In this document: piece by piece, positions 39,643 to 45,509 of the stretch
Numbering within the stretch: the stretch's first letter is position 1
Layout: every line of letters begins with the position of its first letter
Assembly (NCBI RefSeq): GCF_004766125.1
Contig: NZ_SJSA01000001.1
Span: forward strand, 558,001-622,000
DNA: 64,000 nt
From: Duncaniella freteri
GTDB lineage: Bacteria; Bacteroidota; Bacteroidia; Bacteroidales; Muribaculaceae
Reading direction: 5' to 3'
Notes under the pieces: generated by a model
What the model saw: the letters and a program-made list of their open reading frames with translations, nothing else
Database searches by the model: none
Told to the model about the DNA's origin: nothing
Made by a program: the position numbers and the translations under genes

Positions 39643-39779
39643 AATGGTGTAAAAAAATATCGAAACAGTGCACGGAACCGAGAAATGGTGGTGGGGTGAC
39701 TGCTTCAACATTTTTCATCGTGTCTCCATAGGAATTATCCTACCGGACGGACAGATGTTTATCTCTAAAAAACTTTTTG

Positions 39780-39830
39780 CAGTTTTAGCATTTTTGAAGA
39801 GGTTGCAAGCAGCCAAATTTTTCCTCTCGT
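39780..39830 (-). promoter_or_regulatory. SAM-II-like riboswitch in the metK leader
   Basis: On the minus strand, P1 is GAGAGG (39828-39823) with CCTCTT (39802-39797). The loop holds TTTGGC (39817-39812), which can pair with GCTAAA (39789-39784) to form the H-type pseudoknot. The bases before P1's 3' strand read TTGCAA, and an A-rich linker leads to GCTAAAA. These are the SAM-II hallmarks as I remember them. An alternative AT-rich hairpin (CTAAAACT with AGTTTTTTAG) overlaps the pseudoknot strand and may be the switch. Family match is by eye. Confidence 0.65.
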
Positions 39831-39846
39831 CCCGAAAAAGACGGTG

Positions 39847-40307: not shown

Positions 40308-40361
40308 AACACATACAGAGCCCGCAAAAAACAGTGTTTTTTTGCGGGCTCTGTATGTGTT
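40308..40361 (-). terminator. Rho-independent terminator for the caspase operon
   Basis: An about 24-bp inverted repeat (40308-40332 with 40336-40361) containing gagcccgc/gcgggctc and A/T runs, just past the barrel gene stop at 40397. Confidence 0.85.
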
Positions 40362-40396: not shown

Positions 40397-41017
40397 TCAG
40401 AATTTGAAACCTACTGTGGCGTAGAAAGCGGCATTACGTATACTGCCTACTATATCTTCAAATTTCTTCTGTATGGATATGAAGCCTAACTCATATTCCA
40501 CACCAAACACGAATCGATGGTATTCAAAATCCACACCGAAATCAAGACCTGCGTCAAAACGTCTGCCTGAAGGTCCTTCATCATTGCTTGAGAAGAAATC
40601 CTCATCAAATGATTCACCTTCATATCCCCCCTTAATCTTACCGCTGATTGCATAAGCAAGATAGGGACCTGCTTTGAGCGCACAGTTCCAGTCATCGTTT
40701 ATGTTCACACGATAGGCTGCAACTACAGGAACCTGGATATAAAAGAGATCAAGAGTGCTCTTATATTCAAAACCTTTATCTGAAAATTTTTCTTCAGCAC
40801 CTTTCCATGCAACTTCAAGGGAGGGCATGAGTGACCAATTAGATGTCAGAGGTTTCTCAATACCTGCACCTATTTTACCTACAAAGTGACCTGAAAGCCC
40901 TTCAGCATCACCCCAACAATGTGCCAGACCAATACCACCTTTTGTGTTCCATGTGATTTGTGCCGATGCGCTCATTGCAACAAAAGCCACTACTAATAAA
41001 AACAATACTCTTTTCAT
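40397..41017 (-). CDS. Outer-membrane beta-barrel protein, last gene of the caspase operon
   Basis: 206 residues from ATG 41017; the open frame to 41080 overlaps the caspase gene. Signal peptide (1-20, VAMSASAQ). The mature part alternates hydrophobic and polar residues in barrel-type strands, with glycine-rich starts (TWNTKGGIGLAHCWGD) and a C-terminal FYATVGFKF, an outer-membrane barrel ending. It starts 42 nt after the caspase stop. It is similar in style to the barrels at 3773 and 54423. Partner or cargo unknown. Confidence 0.75.
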   Translation of the reverse strand: MKRVLFLLVVAFVAMSASAQITWNTKGGIGLAHCWGDAEGLSGHFVGKIGAGIEKPLTSNWSLMPSLEVAWKGAEEKFSDKGFEYKSTLDLFYIQVPVVAAYRVNINDDWNCALKAGPYLAYAISGKIKGGYEGESFDEDFFSSNDEGPSGRRFDAGLDFGVDFEYHRFVFGVEYELGFISIQKKFEDIVGSIRNAAFYATVGFKF

Positions 41018-41058
41018 GATGTAATTAATAATTGGTTGAAAAATGGATATATAAATAA

Positions 41059-42684
41059 TTAGAATTGAAGTTTTTTCCATTTGGGCTTCATGCTTGCCGA
41101 CACGTTAACCGATGGGGTCTGAAGCTTATCGTTCTCAAGCATAGAATTTTTCTTGACGTGAGTTGACAAAACCTGAAACATCTCACCAAACGAAGCATTG
41201 CCGCGAGTCTTCTTCAGATGGTCAAGCAGAAAGTATGTGAACATACCGTGACGCTTGTCCTTATACGCCAAGGCTGTCTCGTCATCTGATGTGGCTGTGA
41301 ATACCACCATATTACCAGGAATCGCTTCTGTCTTGGGCTTTATTGCTACACCGCGTGCTGCCACAAGAGCCTGACCAGAGCCACGTTTTACACCGCTGAA
41401 ACAAGCATCGAGTAACACTGTGACACTTTTACTTTTTAGATTACCAAGACGAGCATACATATCGCTGAGCTTAAAACATGTGGTGATATCTTTAGGAAAG
41501 CCGTCTGTAGGAATAAGATATGCCGTTTTATCCTTCTCATTTGGAATGCCATGACCTGCATAGTAGAATATCACCTTCGATTCGGCTCCTGAAATATCTG
41601 CCATTGTCTCGATCCAGTTAAGGGCCCTCTTTACATCGGTATATGATGCGTTTATGAATGATTTGACCTGTTTTTCCGGGATTCCGAGAGTCTTTATACA
41701 ATATTCCCTGAACACTTCGCCGTCACGTTCAGCATATTCCACCTCCGGCACATCTTCATATTTTTCATTTGCAATAATCACACAATAGGTATTATTATTT
41801 TTATCGGTACTCACTACAGGTATATCAATATCGACATCCACCGGAGGCAACTCTGGTATCACCGGGGCTGGAGCAGCGGCTATAAGCTGGGGCTGAGGCT
41901 GTTGAGTAACTATCTCCGGAGAGTCGTCACTCTCGTTAATACCGAAAAGTCCCTTGAAAGCACCTTTCATACCTCCAGATCTTTTCTTGCTTTTCCTCTC
42001 TTTTTCTTTATCCTTTTCACGCTGCTTTTCCTCCTTCTCCTTTTGCTTTGCGGCTTCAGCAAGGAGCTCTTCAGTTTCTCTAAGCAACTTCGCCTGCTCA
42101 AGAAGCTGGGCTTTGAGAGCCTCATTCTCTTTATCCTGCTGCTTTTTATTCTCTATTTCGTCCTGAGTTTCCTTCCTGCGTGAAGATATATCATATGAGG
42201 ACTTATTGGTTGCTGCTAAGTCAAATGTATTAGCATTTTTAATGAACAATTCCTGTCCGTTGCGGATAGCTGTCTCATCAATGCTCCCAGCCATATCGAA
42301 TTCCATACCACGATTATCGCGAAATGCATTCTTGCCGATATGTCTGATAGAATTAGGCAGCTTGACAGACACCAGTTTGCGAAATTCGTTGAAACAAAAT
42401 TTATCAATCTCTTCAATACCCTCCTCTATGGTGAGATAGACTGTGGAATAATTGACTCCATTGAGAAATGTGTTCACGGATTTCACTGGATAGGATATGC
42501 CTTTGTGTACAATAGAGGCAGGTATCGTTACCTCCTGTGTCTTGTGATTGAAACTTTTTATACATGCTACGCCGTCAGTAATCTTTCCTTTGAACTCCAC
42601 TCCGTTATATACATAACTGAATCCTTGTGCAATGATATGGAATGTGACGACGATGAAAGTGATGAACGTGATGATTCGTTTCAT
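41059..42684 (-). CDS. Exported caspase-family protein with BspA-type leucine-rich repeats
   Basis: 541 residues. Signal peptide (1-19, HIIAQ). Residues about 48-125 are BspA/LRR_5 repeats (VTIPASIVHKG, VSVKLPNSIRHIGKNAF). Residues about 170-235 are a highly charged Glu/Lys coiled coil, and 256-290 a Pro-rich linker. Residues about 298-520 are a caspase p20 (peptidase C14) domain with His378 in YYAGHG and Cys428 in DACFSG, so the dyad is intact. Exported caspase folds are less usual than cytoplasmic ones. It is third in a four-gene row of exported proteins. Confidence 0.88.
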   Translation of the reverse strand: MKRIITFITFIVVTFHIIAQGFSYVYNGVEFKGKITDGVACIKSFNHKTQEVTIPASIVHKGISYPVKSVNTFLNGVNYSTVYLTIEEGIEEIDKFCFNEFRKLVSVKLPNSIRHIGKNAFRDNRGMEFDMAGSIDETAIRNGQELFIKNANTFDLAATNKSSYDISSRRKETQDEIENKKQQDKENEALKAQLLEQAKLLRETEELLAEAAKQKEKEEKQREKDKEKERKSKKRSGGMKGAFKGLFGINESDDSPEIVTQQPQPQLIAAAPAPVIPELPPVDVDIDIPVVSTDKNNNTYCVIIANEKYEDVPEVEYAERDGEVFREYCIKTLGIPEKQVKSFINASYTDVKRALNWIETMADISGAESKVIFYYAGHGIPNEKDKTAYLIPTDGFPKDITTCFKLSDMYARLGNLKSKSVTVLLDACFSGVKRGSGQALVAARGVAIKPKTEAIPGNMVVFTATSDDETALAYKDKRHGMFTYFLLDHLKKTRGNASFGEMFQVLSTHVKKNSMLENDKLQTPSVNVSASMKPKWKKLQF

Positions 42685-42699
42685 AAAATATTAGATTGG

Positions 42700-43557
42700 C
42701 TATCGATTGGTTATTGTAACGAATTTGCGTATTATCTGCATTTCCGGGTCGCGTCTGCGACATTTGGTCAACCATTTATGAAATTCATTTTCAGGAAGTT
42801 CTCGCGGGAGCAGTTCCCCCTCGGTTTGACTGTCAAGAGCTTTTGTAAACTTTCGTGGAGAGAATATTATGTATATGATATTGTTTTCGGTTTCGCGAGA
42901 TGCTGTCAGACAATATTCTTCAATATATTCATCGCCAACAGTACTGTCAAACAACAGATATGATCTATTGCCCTTTATAGGAAAACTCGCATCGGTCTGT
43001 GAGGGATATGGAAGCAGACATGACACGGTCCCGGTGCCGTCAGAAAGATACACTGCGAGAAAGCCGTTGGTAGTGGATTGGAACATAAGATAGATCTGAT
43101 CACCTGCTATAAAACGGTCCGACTCATGTTTATGCGACTTGCCGTTACATAACACATGGGCTACACATTCGGAAGTCGACGACACAAGTTCCCTTGCCTT
43201 ACCTTTTACTGACACATAAATTGTGAACATTCCGTCAACAAAAGAAATATCGTAGACCGGAGCATCGGTATCTTCGAGCCATTCTCCTTTCACCTCACTC
43301 ATTCCTATGGTCTGAAAATCAACCTCAACAGTGCCTGTCGTGGAAATGTTTGTTATATTGGTCTGTGACACAATTGTACCGAATGCCGAGGCTAAAGCCT
43401 GAATGCGTGCTCGTTCAAGGGCCGTAGCCTTAGCCTGTTCGATGGTCTGACTTTCTGGGACATGATAGGTGTAGTCACCTGTCACAGTCTTGACTTTTTG
43501 AGCTGACAGTGATAGGACTCCACAAAACATTAGCAATATGGCAAGCAACAGACGCAT
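42700..43557 (-). CDS. Exported DUF4384 domain protein
   Basis: 285 residues from ATG 43557; a GTG lies 6 nt earlier. Signal peptide (VLSLSAQ, ending near residue 19). The N-terminal half has the pattern QAKATALERARIQALASAFG, like the FlgT/LPP20 fold. The C-terminal half (about 130-240) matches DUF4384 (RFIAGDQIYLMFQSTTNGFL, then PIKGNRSYLLFDS). DUF4384 is often found next to or fused with caspase-like domains, as here where the caspase gene follows after 15 nt. Confidence 0.75.
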   Translation of the reverse strand: MRLLLAILLMFCGVLSLSAQKVKTVTGDYTYHVPESQTIEQAKATALERARIQALASAFGTIVSQTNITNISTTGTVEVDFQTIGMSEVKGEWLEDTDAPVYDISFVDGMFTIYVSVKGKARELVSSTSECVAHVLCNGKSHKHESDRFIAGDQIYLMFQSTTNGFLAVYLSDGTGTVSCLLPYPSQTDASFPIKGNRSYLLFDSTVGDEYIEEYCLTASRETENNIIYIIFSPRKFTKALDSQTEGELLPRELPENEFHKWLTKCRRRDPEMQIIRKFVTITNR

Positions 43558-43559
43558 GA

Positions 43560-44237
43560 TCACCAGCCTAACATCTCATCCAACTTCCCGGCAAGGTCTT
43601 CACTCTCTTTTTCCAACTCAACGCGAAGTACATTTTTGGTTATCGCGCGAGCCTGATCCATACTGTAGAATGTCTGTACAAATACCTCGTAATTTCCGTT
43701 TGGAAGCTTGCGATAACGCTCGATGACAGGTATAGTCTGTCCGAGTTTTTTCGACATTATGGATTTGGAGCGGCTAAGCGTTTTTGCTACAGTGGTAGCA
43801 TCTTGGCTTGAGAGTTGATTATTGCTTATATTATTGTCTACCAACTGTGTTATATCGGACTCTATGCTTCCGATAAGATTTAGGCGGGCCATCTCTCGTG
43901 CCTGCATCATAGCTCCGTCATATACTGATCCAACTGACTGTCCGGAGCCATTTACAAATTTCGGTGTGACCAAATCTTCCTCAAACGAGTTTTCATAAAC
44001 GGCAGCACGTTCGTACTGCATCTCCAACGGAAGTGATCCAGATGCTTTCCACCCCTCTTTTTGATCCTCCTTCGCTCGTTTCTTGCTTGCTTTTGACACC
44101 TTGGTGTTCTGAAGCTTCTTGTTGAGTTTCAACATTTCCGATCGTTGCTTATAAGCATCCTTATTAATCTGTGCCGTGACAGTGACACCTGAGGATACAG
44201 CCATAAACAACGCGAGGACATAAATAACTGCTTTCAT
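43560..44237 (-). CDS. Exported LPP20-like protein, first gene of the caspase operon
   Basis: 225 residues from ATG 44237. The frame extends to 44402 but would run through the upstream structured RNA. Signal peptide (KAVIYVLALFMAVSSGVTVTAQ). A basic helical stretch (about 32-60) is followed by an LPP20-like domain (MMQAREMARLNLIGSIESDI, then GNYEVFVQTFYSMDQAR). No lipobox cysteine, so probably periplasmic. It ends 2 nt before the DUF4384 start codon. Confidence 0.7.
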   Translation of the reverse strand: MKAVIYVLALFMAVSSGVTVTAQINKDAYKQRSEMLKLNKKLQNTKVSKASKKRAKEDQKEGWKASGSLPLEMQYERAAVYENSFEEDLVTPKFVNGSGQSVGSVYDGAMMQAREMARLNLIGSIESDITQLVDNNISNNQLSSQDATTVAKTLSRSKSIMSKKLGQTIPVIERYRKLPNGNYEVFVQTFYSMDQARAITKNVLRVELEKESEDLAGKLDEMLGW

Positions 44238-44816: not shown

Positions 44817-45509
44817 TCAGTCGGGGGTTTTGAGGAGCACTCCGCGAAGTGCGCGGCGTGAACGTACTCTAATCTCGGTGGGTGTATAATCGAGTATGCC
44901 ATGTGCCTTCATTCCGTCAAGAGCCGCTATGAATGACGAACGCTGCACACCGAACAGTGAATACAGGTCGCGCTGCTTGGCACTGAGCACTATGTCGTCC
45001 GAATCAATCTGGGTGAGGGCTATTATCCAGAATGCTATGCGCTCCTCAAGCGAACCTGACGTTATAGCCAATACTCCGTCGACCGCCTTCTGTGCGTTGC
45101 TCGACAGAATATTGAGATAATTGAAGAGAAACACATCATCGCTCTGGAGCAGCGGTATGAAATCCTTTTTTTCAATCTGCATTATCGATACTGTGTCGAT
45201 GGCTGTGGCAGAGGCTGGATAAAGGGTGTTGCGCCCGAAAAGAAAATCAGGAGATATCACAGCCGGTGAAGAGAGCGTCTGGCTAACTTTCACACGGTCA
45301 CTCTCATTGCATATGGTAAGGCGCACATGCCCTGAGATGACAAACTTTATGTGAGTGCACGGCTCTCCTGCACTAAGCATATGCTCTCCGGGAAGATATT
45401 TCAGAAATGCAAGCCGGGTATTCCCCACTATCTCTGACAGACGTGAGTAACTGACTCCTTTGAATAGAGGGAGAGTCATCAGATTTTCATACATGCTTCG
45501 TGGTGTCAT
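44817..45509 (-). CDS. Crp/Fnr family transcriptional regulator
   Basis: 230 residues. A cyclic-nucleotide-binding-like beta-roll (about 20-120; LPGEHMLSAGEPCTHIKFVISG) is followed by a helical linker and a winged-helix domain (KQRDLYSLFGVQRSSFIAAL). No cysteine cluster for an iron-sulfur centre, so not a classical FNR. The effector is unknown. It lies directly upstream of the structured RNA and caspase operon on the same strand and could regulate it, which is inference from position. Confidence 0.85.
   Translation of the reverse strand: MTPRSMYENLMTLPLFKGVSYSRLSEIVGNTRLAFLKYLPGEHMLSAGEPCTHIKFVISGHVRLTICNESDRVKVSQTLSSPAVISPDFLFGRNTLYPASATAIDTVSIMQIEKKDFIPLLQSDDVFLFNYLNILSSNAQKAVDGVLAITSGSLEERIAFWIIALTQIDSDDIVLSAKQRDLYSLFGVQRSSFIAALDGMKAHGILDYTPTEIRVRSRRALRGVLLKTPD

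Follow-up and report, generated by a model that had tools for sequence, protein, structure and literature searches.

An operon of Duncaniella freteri encoding an apparently exported caspase-family protease and its DUF4384 partner

Four consecutive genes (A to D, with 2, 15 and 41 nt between them) lie on the minus strand of a 64,000-nucleotide stretch of the Duncaniella freteri genome (NCBI RefSeq assembly GCF_004766125.1, contig NZ_SJSA01000001.1, positions 558,001 to 622,000; hereafter the window, to whose first letter all positions refer). Protein C is a caspase carrying leucine-rich repeats (LRRs), and B is a DUF4384 protein. The constant core of the system is B plus the caspase; LRRs, coiled coil and the outer-membrane barrel D are features of one subtype. 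None of the genomes searched had B without a caspase, a pattern that suggests a protease system in the cell envelope. An earlier reading made from the window alone (the sequence-only reading) had described four closely spaced genes for exported proteins and had suggested, from the LRRs and the barrel, a proteolytic sensor or envelope system. The layout and the signal-peptide-like N-termini agree with this, except that the third gap had been given as 42 nt; a proteolytic system in the envelope is consistent with the data, with its core shifted from LRR and barrel to B and the caspase.

Co-occurrence of B and the caspase

Profile searches of 119 genomes of the family (Muribaculaceae) located a caspase domain in 36, B in 35 and A in 25, and all 35 genomes with B also carry a caspase. 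The sole caspase genome lacking B (G048) is 81% complete. Of the 43 B places, 41 have a caspase within 6 kb, in all 41 cases on the same strand; the two remaining ones are on contigs without a caspase, and one of these begins at the first base of its contig. Near B are found 42 of the 67 caspase places and 24 of the 28 A places. Within the genus, the caspase is present in 8 of 27 genomes. For the order, a sample of 294 genomes yielded B in 25 and the caspase in at least 72, with a caspase in 25/25 genomes with B (21/21 after removal of four caspase genomes shared with the family sample); at least 20 of the 27 B places are near a caspase, 19 of these on the same strand.

Searches for sequence relatives gave 26 for A, 258 for B and at least 3616 matches for C (8000 candidates scored); among the 120 relatives of C listed, Peptidase_C14 is present in 120 and LRR_5 in 108. 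The sequence-only reading had made its proposal depend on synteny in related genomes, and the operon does recur there with its genes syntenic. A survey of named genomes was based on the best 80 of 569 confirmed loci (five duplicating family loci), among them loci of Prevotella, Segatella, Xylanibacter, Muribaculum, Alistipes, Paludibacteraceae, Salinivirgaceae and Lentimicrobiaceae. Partners encoded on the caspase strand of these 80 were B (47 loci), A (38), a transglutaminase-like protein (19) and a WD40 protein (8), and 22 loci hold a lone caspase with none of the profiled partners.

Catalytic domain of protein C

Protein C is the only Peptidase_C14 match of its genome (PF00656, 82.4 bits at a cut-off of 21.4), and residues 81-132 match the BspA-type LRR_5 (PF13306, 31.2 bits at a cut-off of 27.7), so that the proposed fusion of a caspase to BspA-type repeats is borne out. 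The catalytic residues His378 and Cys428 are intact at the positions at which the sequence-only reading had placed them, and 146 of 150 distinct caspase open reading frames (ORFs) retain the dyad motif. The structure model of C has a caspase fold, its alignment spans the full caspase length including the region past the Cys (orthocaspases in the strict sense have a p20 domain and lack p10), and its top Foldseek match is the MALT1 paracaspase (3.8e-12). Searches of PDB sequences with C matched LRR structures alone and no caspase.

D321 and D426 are invariant in 89/89 LRR-caspases and in 60/60 diverse caspases of the family, and R444 is likewise invariant in the latter set. Position 434 falls in a disordered loop, six residues past the Cys; it is Arg in 55 and Lys in 5 of the 60, with varying residues at the adjoining positions. 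By our own mapping of motifs, D321 and D426 may correspond to the two pocket Asp residues of TbMC2 and the orthocaspases. Two papers describe orthocaspases with conserved acidic pocket residues (PMC6426788) as well as autocatalysis at Arg219 and a preference for Arg/Lys (PMC7475262). Taken with these published data, the conservation of D321, D426 and Arg/Lys434 suggests that C may cut after Arg or Lys and process itself.

The stretch of C between residues 150 and 282 ranges from 50 to 159 residues in length across 30 aligned rows. The coiled coil, which the sequence-only reading had listed among the fused parts of C, is weakened as a functional element because its length varies among relatives.

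Export

Signal peptides were called with a strict home-made rule, not with SignalP. By this heuristic most members of the caspase class appear to be exported: in the named loci the rule was positive for the caspase (80 of 94 ORFs), A (38 of 39), B (37 of 48) and the transglutaminase-like protein (15 of 19), and in the family loci for 48 of 59 caspases. The controls scored positive in 48 of 149 cases for other family-locus ORFs of at least 250 aa, a set likely to contain genuinely exported proteins, and in 14 of 480 cases for shuffled N-termini. The rule misses clear signal peptides, such as that of the orthologue in genome G008, and other misses stem from wrong starts. A looser rule was dropped, as it scored 81 of the 149 controls positive. 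Export of the caspase, a second point on which the sequence-only reading hinged, is thus upheld at the level of this heuristic.

Proteins A, B and D

Window A has no credible Pfam match at all, LPP20 (PF02169) included, and LPP20 matches 2 of 30 A relatives (best E 6.9e-4). The structure model of A has an LPP20/Tip-alpha-like fold. A, which had been called LPP20-like, is therefore LPP20-like in fold and is not filed as a member of the Pfam family. Its fold is the SHS2-like one of Helicobacter Lpp20/Tip-alpha, Vibrio FlgT and Campylobacter FlgP. The last two build rings associated with the outer membrane. Where FlgP has its ring-forming hairpin, between the helix and strand two, the model of A shows a helical insert. 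None of 20 scanned operon proteins matches a flagellar family.

DUF4384 (PF14326) reaches 25.4 bits in window B, just under the cut-off of 27, 34.2 bits in the G008 orthologue, and is found in 39/39 B relatives (E up to 0.5); a FlgT domain matches 1 of the 39 (E 0.0045). The A and B profiles matched no PDB sequence at E up to 1. D, predicted to be an outer-membrane barrel, matches OMP_b-brl_2 (PF13568) with 59.5 bits at a cut-off of 27.

The LRR-caspase type and modular variants

Among the caspase ORFs of the named loci, 18 match the LRR part of the window protein (E up to 1e-3). The eight closest (E up to 1.4e-24; L093-L098, L100, L105) are each followed by a D homologue 5-81 nt downstream, and a search with D found none at the other ten, one of which, L142, carries a different type of barrel; the division into eight and ten was drawn after the result was known. 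A and B are present in six of the eight D-linked loci and the transglutaminase-like protein in four; in L105 the D region is split over two reading frames. L099 has a close caspase domain with a different N-terminus, and its next gene encodes no barrel. Of 151 distinct caspases, 11/21 of the LRR type and 17/130 of the others have a barrel within 350 nt (Fisher, 1.4e-4), and in these 17 the barrel is placed upstream. The earlier emphasis on an LRR with a barrel partner fits the closest LRR-caspases, whereas in the wider family the LRR is exchangeable and B is the most constant partner.

The N-terminal modules of 60 family caspases (window included), all with Peptidase_C14, are LRR_5 in 15, a single TPR model in up to 18, Sel1 in 5 and WG repeats in 5. 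In a tree built from 63 caspase domains, the labels B-linked and B-free change 10 times, a number as low being reached in 0 of 500 shuffles; with 10 changes, the two kinds are clustered and do not form two clean clades. Window C groups with its G008 orthologue (87% identity). Barrel, WD40 and transglutaminase-like proteins vary as partners across loci. A larger subtype (L067 and similar) has the order CHASE2, small exported-looking protein, WD40, TPR caspase, B, A-like and transglutaminase-like protein.

The transglutaminase-like protein (L032:4044-5528, minus strand, and 23 cluster mates) has about 490 residues, ends many caspase operons and has invariant Cys, His and Asp residues, with weak Transglut_core matches in 10 of 22. 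Its membership in the window system was considered and rejected: the genome of the window yielded no match to it, and 10 of the 42 genomes (of 119) that have it are without a caspase match.

Proposed mechanism and alternatives

In the reading that we favour, and to which we give about an even chance, C is an exported, B-dependent zymogen of the caspase family that acts with dedicated partners at the periplasm or outer membrane, by cutting itself and cleaving a substrate after Arg or Lys. Gene order, co-occurrence and the conservation of dyad, acidic residues and loop are established, together with model-based domain and fold assignments, and export is supported by the heuristic; activation, specificity, the role of B, docking by D and the substrate are inferred. 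C would be secreted via the Sec route, and its N-terminal module (a short LRR here; TPR, WG or Sel1 elsewhere) would bind a ligand in the envelope or on the surface. B would hold, scaffold or restrain the protease, in the A-B-C subtype A may join them in one assembly, and D would dock the LRR-caspase at the outer membrane. Upon ligand binding or clustering, C would cut its own loop past Cys428, beside Arg434, and, once processed, would cleave a protein of the envelope after an Arg or Lys residue. The reading predicts export, dependence on B, Arg/Lys cutting and self-processing beside Arg434. If true, a separate proteolytic signalling or effector system would exist in the envelope, in 36/119 family and at least 72/294 order genomes.

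Several observations weigh against it. No B lies within 6 kb of 25 of the 67 family caspase places (21 in genomes with B elsewhere, 4 in G048), and therefore B need not adjoin every caspase. Among the matches listed, 7 of the 27 order B places have no nearby caspase, and 1 of the 20 that adjoin one is on the opposite strand. In the named loci, 33 of the best 80 lack B on the caspase strand, some of them truncated by contig ends. A comparison of the A and B profiles found no relation between the two. The conservation of R434 and R444 could instead serve folding, and Asp-specific animal caspases match the C model at almost the same Z.

C could also serve protein maturation or nutrient release as a protease that is secreted or exposed at the surface, used in the manner of gingipains or clostripains, with A, B and D as helpers in export, anchoring or folding. 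The heuristic export, the predicted specificity for basic residues and the barrel partner of the window type would all suit such an enzyme, and secreted clan CD clostripains and gingipains are described as processing surface or host proteins (PMC3482391). We nevertheless consider it rather unlikely, since regulation, more than bulk digestion, would account for interchangeable interaction modules and for a partner that is nearly always present and has no known enzyme domain; by inspection, moreover, C ends with its caspase domain, with no C-terminal sorting domain of the type IX secretion system evident. A defence or altruistic-death system located in the envelope and directed against phages or competitors would make C the periplasmic counterpart of cytoplasmic caspase effectors. 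The patchy distribution (36/119 family and 8/27 genus genomes), a match of one PADLOC caspase model to C (2.3e-10) and the AbiGi-type protein (PF10899) encoded downstream of the caspase in L083, with a cluster mate in L050, speak for this alternative; when the four operon proteins were scanned, however, A, B and D matched no PADLOC model at E up to 0.1, and tblastn at 1e-20 and 1e-10 found no C relative in plasmid or phage collections, and we regard it as improbable.

A role in a polymorphic toxin, with the caspase as releasing peptidase or as C-terminal toxin delivered to rivals, appears very improbable. The caspase of C is C-terminal and apparently exported, and PMC3482391 places caspase domains, some of them C-terminal, in secreted polymorphic toxins of Bacteroidetes. 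But C has no toxin domain behind its caspase, none of the neighbours in the 60 family loci, where no search was aimed at immunity families, was conspicuous as a constant immunity-like gene, and the most constant neighbour, B, is itself signal-peptide-like in 37 of 48 cases at named loci. The exported, B-dependent zymogen might be extended to an extracytoplasmic caspase pathway of gut Bacteroidales. Each genome would have a core of one or two caspases linked to B, joined in some genomes by several B-free caspases with other sensor modules, and all would share an A/B outer-membrane platform on which clustering activates zymogens by Arg/Lys cuts in the periplasm. A has the fold of ring-forming proteins, and the platform could be likened to the inflammasome-type scaffolds of animals; we think this extension quite improbable.

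Relation to known systems

The best-studied bacterial caspases are cytoplasmic and act in defence or cell death. C belongs to the known C14 kind and shares Peptidase C14 (PF00656) with bacterial orthocaspases and metacaspases (Geobacter GSU0716, 3bij; cyanobacterial MaOC1), from which it differs by the signal-peptide-like N-terminus of most members, the repeat-type N-terminal modules and the separately encoded DUF4384 partner. The members found here would form a class that is apparently exported, has a partner of its own and draws on interchangeable recognition modules. To MALT1, an Arg-specific, cytoplasmic eukaryotic protease with Ig domains, the caspase domain alone is comparable. From the anti-phage caspase systems of PADLOC, the caspase model alone matches, with no other system protein among A, B and D. 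A survey of metacaspases, as far as its accessible text goes, notes N-terminal helices as possible signal peptides, discusses cell-surface functions and OmpA in metacaspase operons, and describes no operon of LPP20, DUF4384, LRR-caspase and barrel (PMC3501461); the operon was not described in the open-access papers searched.

Operon surroundings and further loci

The positions of the operon features are collected in Table 1.

Table 1. Features of the operon and of protein C in the window
Feature	Position	Strand	Remarks
Gene A	43560..44237	-	225 aa; signal-peptide-like N-terminus; LPP20/Tip-alpha-like fold (model)
Gene B	42700..43557	-	285 aa; DUF4384 protein with signal-peptide-like N-terminus; most constant caspase partner
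Gene C	41059..42684	-	541 aa; LRR-caspase; signal-peptide-like N-terminus
C residues 20-145	42250..42627	-	beta-rich, with a few BspA-type LRRs; LRR_5, 4gt6 and other LRR structures, structure model
C residues 167-233	41986..42186	-	single long helix in the model; then mostly disordered linker to about residue 280
C residues 285-541	41062..41832	-	caspase domain; Pfam, structure model, structural alignment
Catalytic His378 codon	41551..41553	-	H in 89/89 LRR-caspases and 59/60 diverse family caspases
Catalytic Cys428 codon	41401..41403	-	C in 89/89 LRR-caspases and 59/60 diverse family caspases
C residues 432-451	41332..41391	-	disordered loop past the catalytic Cys; predicted local distance difference test (pLDDT) <50; putative self-processing site
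Gene D	40397..41017	-	206 aa; outer-membrane beta-barrel; signal-peptide-like N-terminus
Terminator-like hairpin	40311..40358	both	strong, 20 pairs; between D and metK

The four genes end at the terminator-like hairpin 3' of D. Upstream of A, 579 nt separate it from a Crp-like gene that ends at 44817. Eight exact sites of the Bacteroidetes-type promoter (TTTG, gap, TAnnTTTG) are present in the window, none at the operon, and Rfam gave no match within the operon at gathering score. For an empty-site test, the metK regions of 14 genomes of the same genus were compared, mostly on the operon side, the other side being outside the stretches; neither A-D nor the four window genes beyond the operon (crp, those labelled 45831 and 46808, and ychF) were found in them. 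Since the surroundings of metK differ among genomes, insertion at the metK site is neither shown nor excluded. A SAM-II riboswitch (RF01726, 56.5 bits) lies at 39775-39832 on the minus strand, upstream of the S-adenosylmethionine synthetase gene.

At other loci, a WG-repeat homologue without both catalytic residues (L091:196-2466, minus strand) within an A-B-caspase operon is a possible pseudo-enzyme. The AbiGi-type protein mentioned above is encoded at L083:6592-7302 (plus strand) and its cluster mate at L050:4815-5525 (minus strand), both downstream of a caspase. Between caspase and transglutaminase-like gene, L082:5539-6009 (minus strand) encodes a small exported-looking protein, which by its motif we take to resemble an L,D-transpeptidase. 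L041:5303-7611 (plus strand) holds a tandem pair of caspase genes with 5 nt between them.

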